Below, piece after piece: positions 42,295 through 49,583 of a DNA stretch of 64,000 nucleotides. Source of the DNA: Cellulomonas sp. APG4 (GTDB taxonomy: Bacteria > Actinomycetota > Actinomycetes > Actinomycetales > Cellulomonadaceae); the NCBI RefSeq assembly GCF_009996735.1, contig NZ_JAACYI010000017.1, positions 1-64,000 on the forward strand, in the 5' to 3' direction. The notes under the pieces are model-generated. The model worked only from the letters and a program-made list of their open reading frames with translations. It was not told the origin of the DNA and made no database searches. Every line of letters starts with the position of its first letter. The stretch's first letter is position 1. A program made the translations under genes and the position numbers.

Positions 42295-43278
42295 TCACGG
42301 GGCGAGGGCCGCCGCGACCTCGTCGGTGATGCGGCCGAGCGTGCCGAGGCCACCGTTGACGATGTACCAGTCGACCGAGTCGACGTAGACGACCTGGTCC
42401 TCGCTCCACGCCGTCGTGCCGTGCACGAGCTCGTTGTCGAGCACCTGCGCGGCCGCGGCGCCCGCCTCACCCGTGGCGGCGTCGCGGTCGACGACGAACA
42501 TCCAGTCAGGGTTGGTCTCGGCGAGGAACTCGAAGCTGATCGCCTCGCCGTGGGTCGCGGCCTCGACGTCCTCGACCGCCGGGGTCAGGCCCAGCTCGTC
42601 GTGCAGGAACCCGAAGCGGGACCCCGGGCCGTAGGCGGTCACCTCGCCGCCGCTGGTCAGGACGATGAGGCCGTTGCCGGCGTCGGCCGCGAGCGCCTTG
42701 GTCTCCTCGATCTTCGTGTCGAGGTCACCGATGAGCTCCTCGACCTCGTCCTCGCGGTCGAAGATCTCGCCGAGGGTGCGCGAGTTCTCCTCGATGCTGC
42801 CGCGGAAGTCCGCCCAGTCGTTCGACAGGTCGATCGTCGGGGCGATCTTGTCGAGCTCGGGCAGTGCCTCGGACGAGCGTCCCGCGACGATGATCAGGTC
42901 GGGCGCGGCCGCAGCCACGGCCTCGTAGTCGGGCTCGAACAGGGTGCCGATGTCCAGCACGTCGTCGGTCGCGAAGCGCTCGAGGTCGCCGGGGAGGTTC
43001 GACTTGGGCAGCCCGTCCACCTCGATGCCCAGCTGGTCGAGCGTGTCGACCGTCGCGAGGTCGAAGGTCAGCACCGTCTCCGGGTTGACCGGCACGGTGG
43101 TCTCGCCCTGCGCGTGCGTCACCGTGATCTCGCTCGGCCCCTCCTCGACCTCGGCGGGCGACTCGTCGACCTCAGCGCCCGGCTCGGCGGTGCTCGCGCA
43201 CGCGGTCAGGGCGAGGCCGAGACCTGCGACGACGACGGCGGCGGCACTGCGCCGGGCGACGGAACGATGGGTGAGCAC
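42295..43278 (-). CDS. Siderophore-binding lipoprotein (YclQ/CeuE-like)
   Basis: 327-residue substrate-binding lipoprotein (lipobox LALTACAS, Cys at residue 27) of the class III iron-siderophore binding family. A Glu-rich linker precedes the N-lobe, which has ETVLTFDLATVDTLDQLGIE, then PDLIIVAGRSSEALPELDKI. The late WYIVNGGLGTLGRITDEVA is typical of YclQ/CeuE-type proteins that bind catecholate siderophores such as petrobactin or bacillibactin; the actual ligand is uncertain. GTG 43278 has GAGGAG about 6 nt upstream. Two DmdR/IdeR-type boxes lie within 65 nt upstream, so expression should rise under iron limitation. Confidence 0.9.
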   Translation of the reverse strand: MLTHRSVARRSAAAVVVAGLGLALTACASTAEPGAEVDESPAEVEEGPSEITVTHAQGETTVPVNPETVLTFDLATVDTLDQLGIEVDGLPKSNLPGDLERFATDDVLDIGTLFEPDYEAVAAAAPDLIIVAGRSSEALPELDKIAPTIDLSNDWADFRGSIEENSRTLGEIFDREDEVEELIGDLDTKIEETKALAADAGNGLIVLTSGGEVTAYGPGSRFGFLHDELGLTPAVEDVEAATHGEAISFEFLAETNPDWMFVVDRDAATGEAGAAAAQVLDNELVHGTTAWSEDQVVYVDSVDWYIVNGGLGTLGRITDEVAAALAP

Positions 43279-43417: not shown

Positions 43418-44266
43418 ATGACCGTCGACGCCACGCGCACCCGCACGCGACCCGGGACGGACGACGTGGTGCGGCGGGTGCCCCTCTCCCTCGTCGCACG
43501 CGAGCTGGTGGTCGAGGCCGTCGAGGACCTCAGCCCTTCCCTGCGCCGCGTGCACCTCACCGGCCCGGACCTGCTCGGCTTCGCGTCCCACGGACCCGCC
43601 GACCACGTGAAGGTCTTCTTCCCCGCCGACGACGGCGTGCTGCACCTGCCGACCGTGAGCGACGGCCGGTGGCTCGACCACGGGGACCCGCGCTTCACGT
43701 ACCGCGACTACACGGTGCGCACGTTCGACGGCGAGCGGCTGACGCTCGACATGGTGGTGCACGGGCACGGCCCCGCGGGGCGCTGGACGGCAGCCGCACA
43801 GCCGGGACTCTCACTCGGGGTGCTCGGCCCGCGCGGCTCGATGCTCCCGCCCCTCGACCGCACCCACTACCTGCTGGCTGCCGACGAGACGGGCCTCCCG
43901 GCGCTGCTCAACTGGCTCGACCGCCTGCCTGCGTCGGCGCGGGTGCACGCCGTCGTCGAGGTCGACTCACCCGAGCACCACGTGGACCTGCCCGCGCTCG
44001 CGCGCGTCGACGTGACGTGGGTCTACCGCGATGGCGCCGAGCCGGGCACGACGACGCTGCTGGTCGACGCGGTACGCACGGCGCACGAGGGCCTACGCGA
44101 CGTCCCGCCCGCGCGGCGCTGGAGCTGGGCGGCGGCCGAGACGTCGTCCGTCCGCGCGATCCGCGAGCTGCTCACCGCCGACGGCCACGACCGTACGTCG
44201 TTCGCGATGACGGGCTACTGGCGGCGCGGAACGGCGAACTTCGACCACCACGCACCCGACGCCTGA
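43418..44266 (+). CDS. Siderophore-interacting protein, FAD-dependent ferric-siderophore reductase (copy 1)
   Basis: 282-residue flavoprotein of the ViuB/SIP family, which reduces ferric siderophore in the cytosol and so releases iron. The FAD-binding motif RDYTVRTFDGE is followed by HGHGPAGRW and ADETGLPALLNWLDRLP. The C-terminal NAD(P)H-binding part ends in SFAMTGYWRRGTANFDHH. ATG 43418 has GGAGAG upstream. It faces the iron boxes and is divergent from the siderophore transporter, and its tandem paralogue begins 34 nt after it. No siderophore synthase is in the window, so the pair may serve imported xenosiderophores. Confidence 0.92.
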   Translation: MTVDATRTRTRPGTDDVVRRVPLSLVARELVVEAVEDLSPSLRRVHLTGPDLLGFASHGPADHVKVFFPADDGVLHLPTVSDGRWLDHGDPRFTYRDYTVRTFDGERLTLDMVVHGHGPAGRWTAAAQPGLSLGVLGPRGSMLPPLDRTHYLLAADETGLPALLNWLDRLPASARVHAVVEVDSPEHHVDLPALARVDVTWVYRDGAEPGTTTLLVDAVRTAHEGLRDVPPARRWSWAAAETSSVRAIRELLTADGHDRTSFAMTGYWRRGTANFDHHAPDA

Positions 44267-44300
44267 GCGCTGCGGGGCAGCGCGGGGGAGGATGGGCCCG

Positions 44301-45119
44301 ATGAGCACCAGCCCCACGCAGCGGATCGCGCTCGACGCGCGCCTGCGTCACCTGACCGTCCGCACCGTCACGACGCTGAGCAGCGCGATGCGTCGCGTCG
44401 AGCTCGAGGGGCCCGATCTCGACGGGTTCGAGTGCTTCGGGCCGAGCGACCACGCGAAGGTCTTCTTCCCCGCCGAACCGGGCGGCGTACCCCAGCTCCC
44501 CGAGCTCACGGACGGCCGGTTCACCAACCGCCAGGACCCGCGCTACGTGTGCCGCGACTACACCGTGCGCACGTGGGACCCGGCGGCGGGGGCGCTCGTG
44601 CTCGACATGGCGACCCACGCCCACGGCCCCGCCGGCAGGTGGGCGGCCGCGGCCGAGCCCGGGCACACGCTCGGCGTGTACGGACCGAAGACGTCGAAGC
44701 TCCCACCGATGGACCGCGCCTGGTACCTGCTCGTCGCGGACGAGACGGGCCTGCCGGCCCTGACGAACTGGCTCGAGCGTCTCCCGGCCGAGGCCCGCGT
44801 ACTGGCTCTCGCCGAGGTCGACGACGCCGCGGCCCAGGTCCCCCTGCCCGGCGGCCTCCCGGTCACGTGGCTCCACCGCGACGGCGCCGCTGCCGGCTCC
44901 ACGACGCTGCTGGCCGATGCGGTCGCTGCGCTCGACCTCGACACCGCGGCCCCCGGCTGGGTGTGGGCCGGCGCCGAGGCGCGAGCCGTGCAGGCCGTGC
45001 GCAAGGTCGTCACCGACCGTGGGATCGATCGCGCGTCGTGCTCGATGACGGGCTACTGGCGCCGCGGCACCGCGAACTTCGACCACAAGTCACCGGAGGC
45101 CCAGGGCGCCGACGCCTGA
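44301..45119 (+). CDS. Siderophore-interacting protein, FAD-dependent ferric-siderophore reductase (copy 2)
   Basis: 272-residue second ViuB/SIP-family reductase in tandem with copy 1. Shared landmarks are PSDHAKVFFPAE, RDYTVRTWDP, HAHGPAGRW, ADETGLPALTNWLERLP and MTGYWRRGTANFDH. The central NADPH and acceptor region differs clearly, suggesting different siderophore preference or different kinetics. ATG 44301 is chosen because GGAGG lies 9 nt upstream and the homologous region starts there; ATG 44292 is an alternative. A hairpin covers the stop codon. As part of the iron-regulated unit, it probably releases iron from ferri-siderophores. Confidence 0.9.
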   Translation: MSTSPTQRIALDARLRHLTVRTVTTLSSAMRRVELEGPDLDGFECFGPSDHAKVFFPAEPGGVPQLPELTDGRFTNRQDPRYVCRDYTVRTWDPAAGALVLDMATHAHGPAGRWAAAAEPGHTLGVYGPKTSKLPPMDRAWYLLVADETGLPALTNWLERLPAEARVLALAEVDDAAAQVPLPGGLPVTWLHRDGAAAGSTTLLADAVAALDLDTAAPGWVWAGAEARAVQAVRKVVTDRGIDRASCSMTGYWRRGTANFDHKSPEAQGADA

Positions 45120-45158: not shown

Positions 45159-46163
45159 TCAGCCGCCGAGCGCCGCGTCCGACGAGAAGACGAGGCCCAC
45201 GCTGATGGTGCCGTCCGTCAGCGCCGTCTTGGTCTGCGGGCCGCCGGCGTCGAGCGAGCTGAACGAGCCGGCGCGGAAGTCGTAGACCTCCTCCAGACCG
45301 GCCTGGCACTTGGGTCGCTCCGGGCACTCGGGCGGGCCGCCGAGCACGGTCGCCTCGCCCGAGCACTTCTCGGCCAGCTCGGTGAGCGTCGAGACGCCGT
45401 AGGTGTCCGCGAACTCCTGGGTCACGGCGAAGGCGTTCTGGTCCTGCGCCGGCGAGGCCTCGCCGAAGACGAGGCCCACCTGCTCACCCAGGTCCTCGAG
45501 CGCGGCGACGGTCTCCTCGAGGTCCGAGGACGAGACCGGCTCCGCCTCGGGTCCGTTGACCTTGCCGTTGAGGAAGTCGGCCATGGTCGCCGCGTACTCG
45601 GGGACCACCTGGATGTCACCAGCCTCGAGCGCGGGCTCGTAGAGCTCACGGTTGCCGATGGTCTGGACCGTCACGGTGTAGCCGGCGCCCTCGAGCGCGA
45701 TGCGGTACAGCTCCGCGAGGGTCTGGTTCTCGGAGAAGTTGGCGGCGCCGATCACGATCGAACCGCCGTCACCGGCCTCGAGGCCCTCGGTCAGCCCGAC
45801 CTCCTCCGCGTAGGTCTGCGCAGCGACGAGCGGGGTCTCCCGCTCGACGTCGACCGCACGGTTGAGCTCGATCAGCTGCTCGGTGTCGAGCGCCGCGGAG
45901 ACGGCGTTGAGCGCCGCCATCAGCTCGGGGGTCGCGACCTCGGCGTTGACCGCCGGGATCACGTTGTCGGTGTTCTGGAGCATCTTGTCGTCCTCGAGGA
46001 CGACGAGCTGCTCCCCGGCGACGGGCGCGCAGCCCTCGCTGCCCGACGTCGCCTCGGGTGCGGCCTTGGTGCCCGAGGACCCCTCCTGGCCGCAGGCCGC
46101 GAGCACGAGGCCCAGGCCCAGGACTGCTGCTGCCGTCACCGACGGCCGACGTGTGGTGCGCAC
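45159..46163 (-). CDS. Osmoprotectant ABC transporter substrate-binding lipoprotein, circularly permuted (OpuCC/ProX-like)
   Basis: 334-residue lipoprotein (lipobox LAACGQ, Cys24) for glycine betaine, choline or a related osmolyte. The order of its parts is unusual. Residues 51-124 (VVLEDDKMLQNTDNVIPAV, LNAVSAALDTEQLIELNRAV) correspond to the segment that normally ends OpuCC/ProX proteins. Residues 134-334 (SIVIGAANFSENQTLAELYR through GTISVGLVFSSDAALGG) correspond to the usual start and middle. Joining the present C-terminus to residue 51 restores the normal sequence order, which defines a circular permutation. It is downstream of its permease genes in the same direction; a divergent ATPase gene completes the system. 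GTG start has AAGG about 8 nt upstream. Confidence 0.86.
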   Translation of the reverse strand: MRTTRRPSVTAAAVLGLGLVLAACGQEGSSGTKAAPEATSGSEGCAPVAGEQLVVLEDDKMLQNTDNVIPAVNAEVATPELMAALNAVSAALDTEQLIELNRAVDVERETPLVAAQTYAEEVGLTEGLEAGDGGSIVIGAANFSENQTLAELYRIALEGAGYTVTVQTIGNRELYEPALEAGDIQVVPEYAATMADFLNGKVNGPEAEPVSSSDLEETVAALEDLGEQVGLVFGEASPAQDQNAFAVTQEFADTYGVSTLTELAEKCSGEATVLGGPPECPERPKCQAGLEEVYDFRAGSFSSLDAGGPQTKTALTDGTISVGLVFSSDAALGG

Positions 46164-46360: not shown

Positions 46361-47140
46361 TCAGGCGCGACCGGTCGCCGTCGGGCGCCGCAGCACCGCC
46401 GCCCAGCGCGACGGCTTGCGCAGCGGGCGGGGTGTCACCGCGCGCTCGACCACGGCGAGCACACCCTCGACCAGCAGCGCGAGCACCGCGACCAGCACGC
46501 CGCCCGCGAGGATCTGCCCGCCGCCCACGGCCATACCCAGCCCGAAGCCCGCGCTGATGATCTGCCCGAGCCCGCCGCCGTTGACGAACGACGCGAGCGC
46601 GGCCGTCGCGACCACCTGCACCGCCGCCGTCCGGAAGCCCGCCGCGAGGTACGGCACCGCGAGCGGCAGCTCGACGCGCCAGAGCACCTGGGCACCCGAG
46701 AGCCCCAGCCCGCGGGCGGCGTCGCGCGCCTCGGCATCAGCCTGGCGCACGCCGGTGTGCGCGGTCGCGAGCAGCGGCGGCACCGCGAACACCGCGAGCG
46801 CGACCACCACGGGCGCCTGCCCGAACCCGAGGAAGGTCAACGGCAGGATCGTGAGCATCGCGATGACCGGGATCGCGAGCGTCACGTTGGACAGGACCAC
46901 CACGAGCCCACCGCCGCGACGCACGTGCCCGAGCCACAGCCCGAGCGGCCACGCCACCGCGCACCCCAGCAGCACCGCGAGCGCCGAGATGGTCAGGTGC
47001 TCGGTCAGCCGGTCGACCACCCCGCCCGGGTTGGTCCAGTTCAGCGGGTCGTTGAGCCACACGACCGCCTGCTCCACGGGCGACGGGCGCACCGCGGCAC
47101 CCACCGCCGTCGGCCCCGCCACGACCAGCCCCGCGCTCAT
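46361..47140 (-). CDS. Osmoprotectant ABC transporter permease (OpuCB/OpuCD-like)
   Basis: 259-residue permease of the MetI/OpuC type with about six helices. The EAA-like cytoplasmic loop is ARDAARGLGLSGAQVLWRVELP, followed by AVPYLAAGFRTAAVQVVATA and NGGGLGQIISAGFGLGM, all typical of OpuCB/OpuCD. ATG 47140 overlaps the stop of the upstream permease by 4 nt. Two permease subunits and one ATPase are the standard makeup of OpuC. A 197-nt gap separates it from the binding-protein gene downstream, so that gene may have an extra promoter. Confidence 0.9.
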   Translation of the reverse strand: MSAGLVVAGPTAVGAAVRPSPVEQAVVWLNDPLNWTNPGGVVDRLTEHLTISALAVLLGCAVAWPLGLWLGHVRRGGGLVVVLSNVTLAIPVIAMLTILPLTFLGFGQAPVVVALAVFAVPPLLATAHTGVRQADAEARDAARGLGLSGAQVLWRVELPLAVPYLAAGFRTAAVQVVATAALASFVNGGGLGQIISAGFGLGMAVGGGQILAGGVLVAVLALLVEGVLAVVERAVTPRPLRKPSRWAAVLRRPTATGRA

Positions 47141-47823
47141 GCCGGCACCCCCCGCCGGGTCCACGGCGTCAGCGCGCGCCCGACCGCCACCCACGCGAGG
47201 TCGAGCACGAGCGCGAGGACCACGCACAGCACGGTCCCGGTGAGGATCTCCGCGCGGTAGAAGTTGTTGCGGAAGCCGCCGAGGATCAGCTGGCCCAGGC
47301 CGCCGTGCCCCACCAGCACCCCGACGGTGACCAGCGCGACGGTCGAGACGGTCGCGAGCCGCAGCCCCGTGAGGATGCCGGGCAGGGCCAGGGGCAGCTC
47401 GATGCGCAGCAGCCTGCCCCACCGGCTGTACCCCATCCCGGCCGCGGCGTCGCGCACGTCGTCGGGCACCTGGGCGAGCCCGGCCACGGTGTTCCGCACG
47501 ATCAGCAGCAGCGCGTAGAGCACGAGTCCGACGACGACGGTGCGGGTCCCCGTCCCGAGGTAGGGCGCCACGAACGCGAACAGCGCGAGCGACGGGATCG
47601 TGTAGAGCACGCCGGTCAGTGCCAGAATCGGGCCCGTCAGCGACCGGAACCAGAAGGCCAGGACGGCCAGCGGCACGGCGACGAGCGCGGCGACCAGCAC
47701 GGCCTGGCCGGTCAGCTCGGCGTGCTCGCGCAGCGCCGACAGCACCGTGGTGGAGTTGTCCTGCACGTAGCCGAGGTCGACCCAGGGATTGCCGGGGTCG
47801 GCGGCCAGGAGCAGGGAGCGCAT
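47137..47823 (-). CDS. Osmoprotectant ABC transporter permease (OpuCD/OpuCB-like)
   Basis: 228-residue permease with about five or six helices. The ATPase-contact loop is VRDAAAGMGYSRWGRLLRIELP, with GILTGLRLATVSTVALVTVG and GHGGLGQLILGGFRNNFY downstream. It is the first gene of the minus-strand unit. Its ATG at 47823 is preceded exactly 6 nt upstream by TAGCGT (47830-47835), so the transcript probably begins at the start codon. That start is only 2 nt from the start codon of the ATPase gene on the opposite strand. The Opu-type operon is otherwise usually collinear, so the split into two directions is notable. Confidence 0.9.
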   Translation of the reverse strand: MRSLLLAADPGNPWVDLGYVQDNSTTVLSALREHAELTGQAVLVAALVAVPLAVLAFWFRSLTGPILALTGVLYTIPSLALFAFVAPYLGTGTRTVVVGLVLYALLLIVRNTVAGLAQVPDDVRDAAAGMGYSRWGRLLRIELPLALPGILTGLRLATVSTVALVTVGVLVGHGGLGQLILGGFRNNFYRAEILTGTVLCVVLALVLDLAWVAVGRALTPWTRRGVPA

Positions 47824-47825
47824 GC

Positions 47826-48806
47826 ATGGACGCTACAGCGGCGGCACCGATCACTCTCGAGGGAGTGCGCAAGGAGTACCCGGACGGGACGGTCGCGGTC
47901 ACGGGCCTCGACCTGCACGTGCCTGCGGGTGAGGTCGTGGTGCTCATCGGGCCGTCGGGCTGCGGCAAGTCGACCGTGCTGCGGATGATGAACCGGCTGA
48001 TCGAGCCCACCGCCGGGCGCGTGCTGCTGGGCGACGAGGACGTCACGTCCGTGGATCCGGTGACCCTGCGGCGTCGGATCGGCTACGTGATCCAGAACGT
48101 GGGGCTGTTCCCGCACCAGGACGTGCTGACCAACGTCGGCACGGTGCCGCGGTTGCTCGGCTGGTCGAAGGCCGACGTGCGTGAGCGCGCGGCCGAGGTG
48201 CTCGAGCTCGTCGGCCTGGACCCGGCCACCTACGGGCGTCGGTACCCGAGCGAGCTCTCAGGCGGTCAGCGCCAGCGGATCGGCGTGGCGCGGGCCCTCG
48301 CGGCCCGGCCCGTGGTGCTGCTCATGGACGAGCCGTTCTCGGCCGTCGACCCGATCGCGCGCGGCAACCTCCAGGAGGAGTTCCTCCGCCTGCAGGACGG
48401 CGTGCGCACCACGATCGTGCTGGTCACGCACGATCTCGACGAGGCCGTGCGACTCGGCGACCGCATCGCGGTGCTCTCCCAGGGCGGTGTGCTCGAGCAG
48501 CTCGCGACCCCGCGCGAGCTGCTGGGCGAGCCGGCCTCGCCGTTCGTGCGCGAGTTCGTGGGCCGCGACCGGGCCATCCGGCGCATGTCCGTGACTCCCG
48601 TGACCGAGGACCTGCTCGACCCGGTCGCGCCCGTGCCCGACGGCGTCCCGGCGGTCGCGCTGGGCACGTCCCTGTACGAGGCCCTCGCGGTGCTGCTGCG
48701 CACCAACGCCGACGTCGCACGCGTGACGGACGGCGACGCCGTCGTCGGCCTCGTCACCCGGCACCGCATCCTGAGCATCGACTACCCACCCGACCCCACC
48801 CCCTGA
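47826..48806 (+). CDS. Osmoprotectant ABC transporter ATPase (OpuCA-like)
   Basis: 326-residue ATPase subunit. Walker A is GPSGCGKST, the Q-loop region has GYVIQNVGLFPHQDVLTNV, the signature is LSGGQRQR, Walker B is VVLLMDEPF and the H loop is VTHDLDEAVRLGDR. The C-terminus (SLYEALAVLLRTNADVARVT, VVGLVTRHRIL) is a single CBS-like remnant; OpuCA proteins usually carry CBS domains that sense ionic strength. ATG 47826 has AGGGAG about 6 nt upstream, within the divergent permease coding sequence. It energises uptake of osmoprotectant through the two divergent permeases. A GTG start near 47862 is possible but less likely. Confidence 0.92.
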   Translation: MDATAAAPITLEGVRKEYPDGTVAVTGLDLHVPAGEVVVLIGPSGCGKSTVLRMMNRLIEPTAGRVLLGDEDVTSVDPVTLRRRIGYVIQNVGLFPHQDVLTNVGTVPRLLGWSKADVRERAAEVLELVGLDPATYGRRYPSELSGGQRQRIGVARALAARPVVLLMDEPFSAVDPIARGNLQEEFLRLQDGVRTTIVLVTHDLDEAVRLGDRIAVLSQGGVLEQLATPRELLGEPASPFVREFVGRDRAIRRMSVTPVTEDLLDPVAPVPDGVPAVALGTSLYEALAVLLRTNADVARVTDGDAVVGLVTRHRILSIDYPPDPTP

Positions 48807-48869
48807 CCGGTCCGGGTGCGGGCCCACGGCGGCCGTGGTTGCGTGGCCGTCGACCCCGAGGAGGCCACC

Positions 48870-49583
48870 GTGACCGAACGCCCGTACGACTACTCCGACC
48901 TGAGTGCCCTGTTCGTCAGCTGCACGCTCACCCCGTCGCCCGCGCCGTCGAACACCGAGGCGCTCATGGCGGACAGCATCGAGATCATGCGACGCCAGGG
49001 CGTCGCGACGGAGCTGGTGCGCGCGGTGGACCTCGACATCGCGCCCGGCGTCCAGCCGGACATGTCCGACCAGTTCCCCGGTGACGAGTGGCCGCAGCTC
49101 ATGGCCAAGGTGCGCGCGGCCGACATCGTGGTGCTCGGCTCACCCATCTGGCTCGGTGAGAAGTCGAGCGTGTGCACGCGCGTCGTCGAGCGGCTCTACG
49201 CCCACTCGAGCGAGACGAACGACCGTGGCCAGTACCTGTACTACGGCAAGGTCGCGGGCGTGGTCGTCACCGGCAACGAGGACGGGTACAAGCACGTGGG
49301 CATGAACCTGACCTACTCGATGCAGCACCTGGGCTTCACCGTCCCACCGCAGTCCGACACCGCCTGGGTGGGCGAGATCGGCCCGGGCCCGTCCTACGCC
49401 GACGACGGCTCGGGCGGCCCCGAGAGCTCGTTCACCCAGCAGACGCTCACGTTCATGACCTGGAACCTCATGCACATGGCCGCGCTGCTCAAGCGGTCCG
49501 ACGGGATCCCTGCGCACGGCACGTCGACGACAGCGTGGCAGGACGGCGCGCGCTTCGACCACCCCCGCGGCGACGCCCTCTGA
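48870..49583 (+). CDS. NAD(P)H-dependent FMN reductase/flavodoxin-family protein
   Basis: 237-residue flavoprotein. The FMN phosphate-binding loop FVSCTLTPSPAPSNTEALM near residue 15 and ADIVVLGSPIWLGEKSS place it in the flavodoxin-like NADPH-dependent FMN reductase family. The next conserved piece is KVAGVVVTGNEDGYKHVGMN. It probably reduces flavin or quinones in the cytosol; the acceptor is unknown. GTG 48870 has GAGGAGG 5-6 nt upstream; an in-frame ATG lies further upstream at 48816 but lacks such a site. It follows the osmoprotectant ATPase gene in the same direction without evident functional connection. Confidence 0.85.
   Translation: MTERPYDYSDLSALFVSCTLTPSPAPSNTEALMADSIEIMRRQGVATELVRAVDLDIAPGVQPDMSDQFPGDEWPQLMAKVRAADIVVLGSPIWLGEKSSVCTRVVERLYAHSSETNDRGQYLYYGKVAGVVVTGNEDGYKHVGMNLTYSMQHLGFTVPPQSDTAWVGEIGPGPSYADDGSGGPESSFTQQTLTFMTWNLMHMAALLKRSDGIPAHGTSTTAWQDGARFDHPRGDAL

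Follow-up and report, generated by a model that had tools for sequence, protein, structure and literature searches.

In the 64,000-nucleotide stretch of Cellulomonas sp. APG4 analysed here (contig NZ_JAACYI010000017.1, positions 1 to 64,000; hereafter the window), a gene at 45159-46163 on the reverse strand encodes a lipoprotein in which the two parts of a PF04069 substrate-binding domain stand in swapped order. Very probably it is the membrane-anchored substrate-binding lipoprotein of an ATP-binding cassette (ABC) importer of the OpuC/ProX type, permuted once in an actinomycete ancestor. The sequence shows a short linker between the old C-terminus and the old N-terminus, with signal peptide and lipobox staying in front; the two-lobe fold is predicted to be kept. 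The open reading frame (ORF) starts with GTG, spans 334 residues including a lipobox, LAAC, and is organized as follows:

45159-46163, reverse strand: circularly permuted PF04069 substrate-binding lipoprotein gene, 334 amino acids (ORF; phmmer against the PDB; PF04069 profile)
46092-46163, reverse strand: signal peptide and lipobox, residues 1-24, ending in LAAC (sequence)
46008-46043, reverse strand: new N-terminal extension, residues 41-52 (GSEGCAPVAGEQ), holding C45 (sequence, comparison of rows, model)
45789-46007, reverse strand: residues 53-125, equivalent to the C-terminal part of normal proteins (PF04069 187-256; AfProX 201-274)
45762-45788, reverse strand: linker from old C-terminus to old N-terminus, residues 126-134 (doubled-parent alignment, ORF comparison)
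45162-45761, reverse strand: residues 135-334, equivalent to the N-terminal and central part of normal proteins (PF04069 2-183; EgtUC 9-195)
45363-45365, reverse strand: codon of C267, putative disulfide partner of C45 (codon 46029-46031) by comparison of rows

The original prediction had read residues 51-124 as the usual C-terminal part and residues 134-334 as the usual N-terminal and central part, with the permutation lying behind the lipoprotein signal; its boundaries are right within one or two residues, and the permutation is supported by the split matches and the doubling test described here. In phmmer searches against the PDB, residues 135-299 correspond to AfProX 7-165 and residues 53-125 to AfProX 201-274; with EgtUC, residues 137-331 correspond to 9-195 and residues 52-125 to 200-275, the order being swapped in both cases. 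By itself the C-type segment is weak in this search (i-Evalue 0.33 for AfProX and 0.54 for EgtUC). Against PF04069, residues 1-129 alone give an E value of 8.5e-10 over positions 187-256 of the hidden Markov model (HMM), and the remainder of the protein covers positions 2-183 of 257. The whole protein matches PF04069 (OpuAC) in two stretches with 130.2 bits, the gathering cut-off being 21.2. A collinear alignment of residues 51-334 with OpuCC-type proteins was sought and none appeared; the same chains give unbroken alignments with normal-order relatives.

A permutant should align better to a normal-order homologue written twice than to a single copy. Doubling raised the Smith-Waterman score by more than 30 in 39 of 39 normal-order homologues (median 448 to 572; best shuffled score 89), whereas in the normal-versus-normal control the gain was at most 6 (n=38). 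Rejoining the ends restores the usual order, as had been foreseen: on the doubled normal-order protein L101, each of the 276 residues is aligned a single time, except for one that is aligned twice, and 8 residues are inserted where the two parts meet. So short a linker suggests that the N- and C-termini of the parent were close in space; in many of the 27 relative rows printed it is Gly/Ser-rich. Each segment of the parent is present once and the alignment is restored by doubling, which is the mark of a circular permutant, and all 135 loci examined have a single N and a single C segment. The cut falls in a loop, between ...VFSSDAA and LVVLEDDK, immediately ahead of lobe 2's last strand.

Assignment to the OpuCC/ProX type stands insofar as both segments match ProX/OpuC-type proteins, but the nearest kin that we found are normal-order, F-III-like proteins of actinomycetes and not OpuCC. 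The OsmF model NF049931 (equivalog cut-off 400 bits) gives 62.1 bits for the window protein and 103.3 for normal-order L101, both below the cut-off.

Structure prediction by AlphaFold2 gave a complete, confident two-lobe fold for the window protein. The 22 secondary-structure elements of the model are the normal 22 rotated by five, all of them being present. Residues 53-125 make up the last strand of lobe 2, the second hinge strand and the C-terminal helices of lobe 1, the lobe limits being set by analogy with EgtUC (PMC9732360). Confidence is low over the tether that follows the lipobox (predicted local distance difference test score, pLDDT, below 50 over residues 10-40) and high over residues 41-50 of the extension (mean pLDDT 89). 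Among the 50 matches listed from Foldseek's top 1000 PDB chains, none matched the permuted model over its whole length. Lobe 1 would become continuous and lobe 2 split, the lipid anchor would shift from lobe 1 to lobe 2, and the permuted protein would still close on its ligand and deliver it to the two adjoining permeases.

Relatives were collected by scanning genome contigs of 84,980 species for six short peptide patterns of the query, a procedure biased toward close relatives. It yielded 77 loci, 69 permuted and 8 normal by segment position; after further loci were added, the classified set held 116, namely 95 permuted (91 distinct sequences, four pairs being copies) and 21 normal. Twenty extra loci, fetched mostly for looking normal, comprised 19 normal ones and one repeat of L099. 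In 89 of 94 permuted ORFs, the C segment is preceded by a lipobox-like motif. All permuted loci with a taxon name belong to Actinomycetota; four Chloroflexi loci are normal. The gene is not a one-off: it belongs to one clade spread over several actinomycete families, among them Micromonosporaceae, Geodermatophilaceae, Promicromonosporaceae and Cellulomonadaceae, its named carriers including Micromonospora, Plantactinospora, Geodermatophilus, Blastococcus, Promicromonospora, Isoptericola, Cellulomonas and Actinotalea.

In a tree of 76 rows (37 permuted, 39 normal), with the two segments put in one order and the root placed on the Chloroflexi rows, the permuted rows form one side of a single branch (support 90/84, 92% of 200 bootstrap trees, one change) and are nested within normal-order actinomycete proteins. 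The tree thus supports a single origin of the permutation. The window protein falls, together with that of Actinotalea subterranea, inside a Micromonosporaceae clade (100/99), and a second member of the window's genus is placed in another part of the permuted clade (L117 with L042); this points to horizontal transfer of the window's version. Two permuted versions occur in the genus (G505, G546), 74-75% and 53-63% identical to the window protein.

Three transporter genes adjoin the permuted one:

46361-47140, reverse strand: permease 2, BPD_transp_1; best NCBIfam match ProW, far under cut-off
47137-47823, reverse strand: permease 1, BPD_transp_1; best NCBIfam match ProW, far under cut-off
47826-48806, forward strand: divergent ATP-binding subunit; best NCBIfam match proV, narrowly under cut-off (308.8 bits against 326.6)

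The two permease genes share 4 bases at the end of permease 1, and the C-terminal CBS match of the ATPase is weak (E 0.014, under the Pfam cut-off). The same arrangement, an ATPase gene diverging from two permease genes followed by that of the binding protein, is found in most permuted and many normal loci; being common to both forms, it indicates that the permutation probably happened within an existing operon. The ATG starts taken for permease 1 and for the ATPase, on opposite strands, are two bases apart (window 47821-47828). Such a gap leaves no room for a promoter; one of the starts probably lies further inside. In L054, L063 and L078, from some Promicromonospora, extra genes separate permease 2 from the binding protein and were taken as a local insertion; this insert of about 1.4-1.5 kb carries short-chain dehydrogenase-like and TetR-like ORFs, named by reading the sequence.

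Two extra cysteines accompany the permuted order, one in the N-terminal extension (C45 here) and one in lobe 2 (C267 here). Both are present in 93 of 95 permuted rows, the exceptions being L069, with neither, and L075, which ends at a contig edge; not one of the 94 rows readable at both places has just one of the two. The lobe 2 cysteine is absent from all 21 normal rows, and likewise from all 39 of a wider normal set. Normal rows have no such extension, and among 40 of them checked, a cysteine near the start of the C segment was found only in four Chloroflexi rows, within the preceding strand and not in an extension. Another pair, in the motif CPxRPxC (C280, C286), occurs in both orders. In the DSSP assignment of the model, residue 43 has an additional bridge and one strand is extended to span 269-276. 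C45 and C267, to judge from their co-occurrence, probably form a disulfide which would staple the new N-terminus to lobe 2; L069 may be a surviving intermediate. The chances seem to us about even that the whole course of events was as follows: the permutation was fixed once and kept across actinomycete families, it moved the anchor from lobe 1 to lobe 2 and was then locked by the disulfide, with the result that the geometry of tethering and docking was altered and operon and fold were preserved.

Several observations weigh against the reading of the gene as an importer's lipoprotein that was permuted once. Support for the single origin is only moderate, L099 being a long branch; L099 and L069 branch first, in an order that is not settled (AU test p 0.42). 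In the L099 genome (seen again as L140), the permeases lie on the opposite strand and the ATPase directly ahead of the binding protein; the ATPase is placed elsewhere in some normal loci, too. Because the permutation has one origin, co-occurrence of the two cysteines may reflect a single evolutionary gain and not independent replication. Finally, neither leftover second copies nor intermediates of the N-C-N-C kind were present in any of the 135 loci.

This last absence bears on the route by which the permutation arose. The likely one, in our view, is that an in-frame tandem duplication arose and its outer pieces were then lost. It is possible, though distinctly less likely, that recombination placed the C segment, copied or moved, at the front and that the 3´ end disappeared in a separate event, with no tandem duplication and trimming, as the want of a tandem intermediate would allow. 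However, residues 135-334 stop at the point where normal proteins enter the C segment, and many relatives have a Gly/Ser linker similar to the spacer that precedes the N-terminus in the normal order; both are expected of an in-frame tandem, and a tandem fusion of binding domains is found elsewhere. It is an 874-residue ORF, L142 (G039:C16:246000-249600), in which a permease-like part is joined to two tandem binding domains of the OpuAC/ProX type, a tandem of the sort through which permutation by duplication would go.

An improbable alternative is that the permuted protein has left the transporter and been recruited as a sensor or other lipoprotein, for which the changed anchor site and the loss of most of the aromatic cage might be taken to speak; yet both permeases and the ATPase adjoin nearly all permuted loci with long enough flanks, and normal-order kin with the same pocket motifs have the same operon. 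Pocket residues were mapped through the phmmer alignments (chain index plus 229 giving the EgtUC residue number). T296 and R379, by which EgtUC holds the ergothioneine carboxylate (PMC9732360), are conserved as T193 and R283, and K242 is replaced by A141. The cage of EgtUC, formed by F293, N339, Y341, Y419 and Y443 (PMC9732360), reads Y190, D241, N243, F326 and D66 in the window protein; that of AfProX consists of Y63, Y111, Y190 and Y214 (PMC10087775). Two aromatics remain and the hinge tyrosines are replaced. Without a full quaternary-ammonium cage, betaine is not a likely ligand; a small acid bearing an amine or guanidine group is our guess from the sequence, as it would suit acidic D66 and D241 together with the residues for the carboxylate.

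A flavoprotein resembling dihydrolipoamide dehydrogenase or mercuric reductase adjoins the transporter in 25 of 135 loci, all permuted (L007, L008, L038 and L039 among them), and stands either next to the ATPase or downstream of the binding protein, depending on the locus; no match to it was found in the window. We claim no substrate from it because many flanks are short, placements within one lineage are not independent and the window has no match. The window also has an ORF resembling NADPH-dependent FMN reductases (48816-49583, forward strand), in the same orientation as the ATPase and starting 10 bases past its stop; the transporter had no such relative beside it in any of 135 other loci examined, many of which have short flanks. 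Past the end of the binding-protein gene stand two neighbouring genes for siderophore-interacting proteins (43418-44266 and 44292-45119) and one for a Peripla_BP_2 binding protein (42295-43278).

The permuted order was also looked for in genome samples, where a single collinear match over the whole query was counted as permuted. In the window's family, 135 of 200 genomes have such a match and one has a fragment; in a sample of 394 genomes of the class, 17 have it, the window's own included. A PF04069 survey of 60 genomes of the class returned five permuted genes, every one cut at 182-184/187, and no row pointing to another cut, some weak rows spanning only part of the model. That two neighbouring gene pieces were joined or inverted by an assembly or annotation error, which the original prediction had itself raised and which the draft state of the genome (48 contigs) might invite, is next to impossible and is ruled out by independent genomes: 95 of 116 classified loci have the rotated order, 61 other aligned sequences of 43-78% identity from dozens of separately assembled named species share it, and the gene is a single open frame, free of stops, with the codon-position pattern of a conserved protein.

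Rearrangement between OpuAC- and ProX-type proteins, mentioned from the start as known, is indeed in print: B. subtilis OpuAC is circularly permuted relative to other betaine-binding, ProX-type proteins (CPSARST, PMC2395249). Its cut is a different one. OpuAC (PDB 2B4L) is cut at about PF04069 position 117, and the window protein at 183/187; 2B4L chain positions 4-150 pair with residues 152-302 of the L002 paralogue, that is, from HMM position 117 or so. The cut point rules out that the two are the same permutation, and OpuAC belongs to another subgroup with a Trp-type cage (PMC9732360). The normal-order F-III proteins (AfProX, EgtUC, OpuCC/OpuBC, YehZ/OsmF) match the window protein with both segments, and it resembles OpuCC, AfProX and EgtUC in sequence and fold over both lobes, but the order differs. 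An aromatic cage is present in AfProX, EgtUC, OpuBC and OpuCC (PMC9732360) and mostly gone in the window protein. None of the PDB chains among the matches listed aligns in the permuted order. The actinobacterial ProX of Mycobacterium tuberculosis, presumably of normal order, offers another comparison. It is reported to be likewise devoid of conserved aromatic residues, not to bind betaine, choline or carnitine, and to bind polyphenols at 20-70 uM (PMC5894108). TpMglB-2 (Tp0684) of Treponema pallidum, called 'Type Ic', is also lipid-anchored and circularly permuted and still binds and closes; its report (PMC4990184) discusses anchoring as a possible reason for the permutation and describes a glucose-binding protein of the Type I/cluster B fold, which sets it apart as an independent event in another family.

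Among the papers listed by searches of the open-licence literature, we found none that describes a permuted F-III-type protein, its cut or the cysteine pair, and a permutation-search preprint (PMC12667903) gave no match to terms for such proteins. Permutation is thus known within PF04069; this cut, the permuted F-III-type protein and the cysteine pair appear, as far as these searches reach, to be new.

Many natural circular permutations are known from two forms so distant that parent, context and compensating changes are hard to reconstruct. Here, normal-order sisters, which reach about 54% identity over the N segment and frequently share the operon arrangement, live in related actinomycetes, so that cause and consequence can be tested side by side in anchor position, disulfide stability, docking and transport. 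Collinear full-length family models score the permuted proteins low, and annotation pipelines may misname them. The gene offers a clear natural case of protein rewiring, in a lipoprotein of many soil actinobacteria, in which fold and transporter have apparently been retained.
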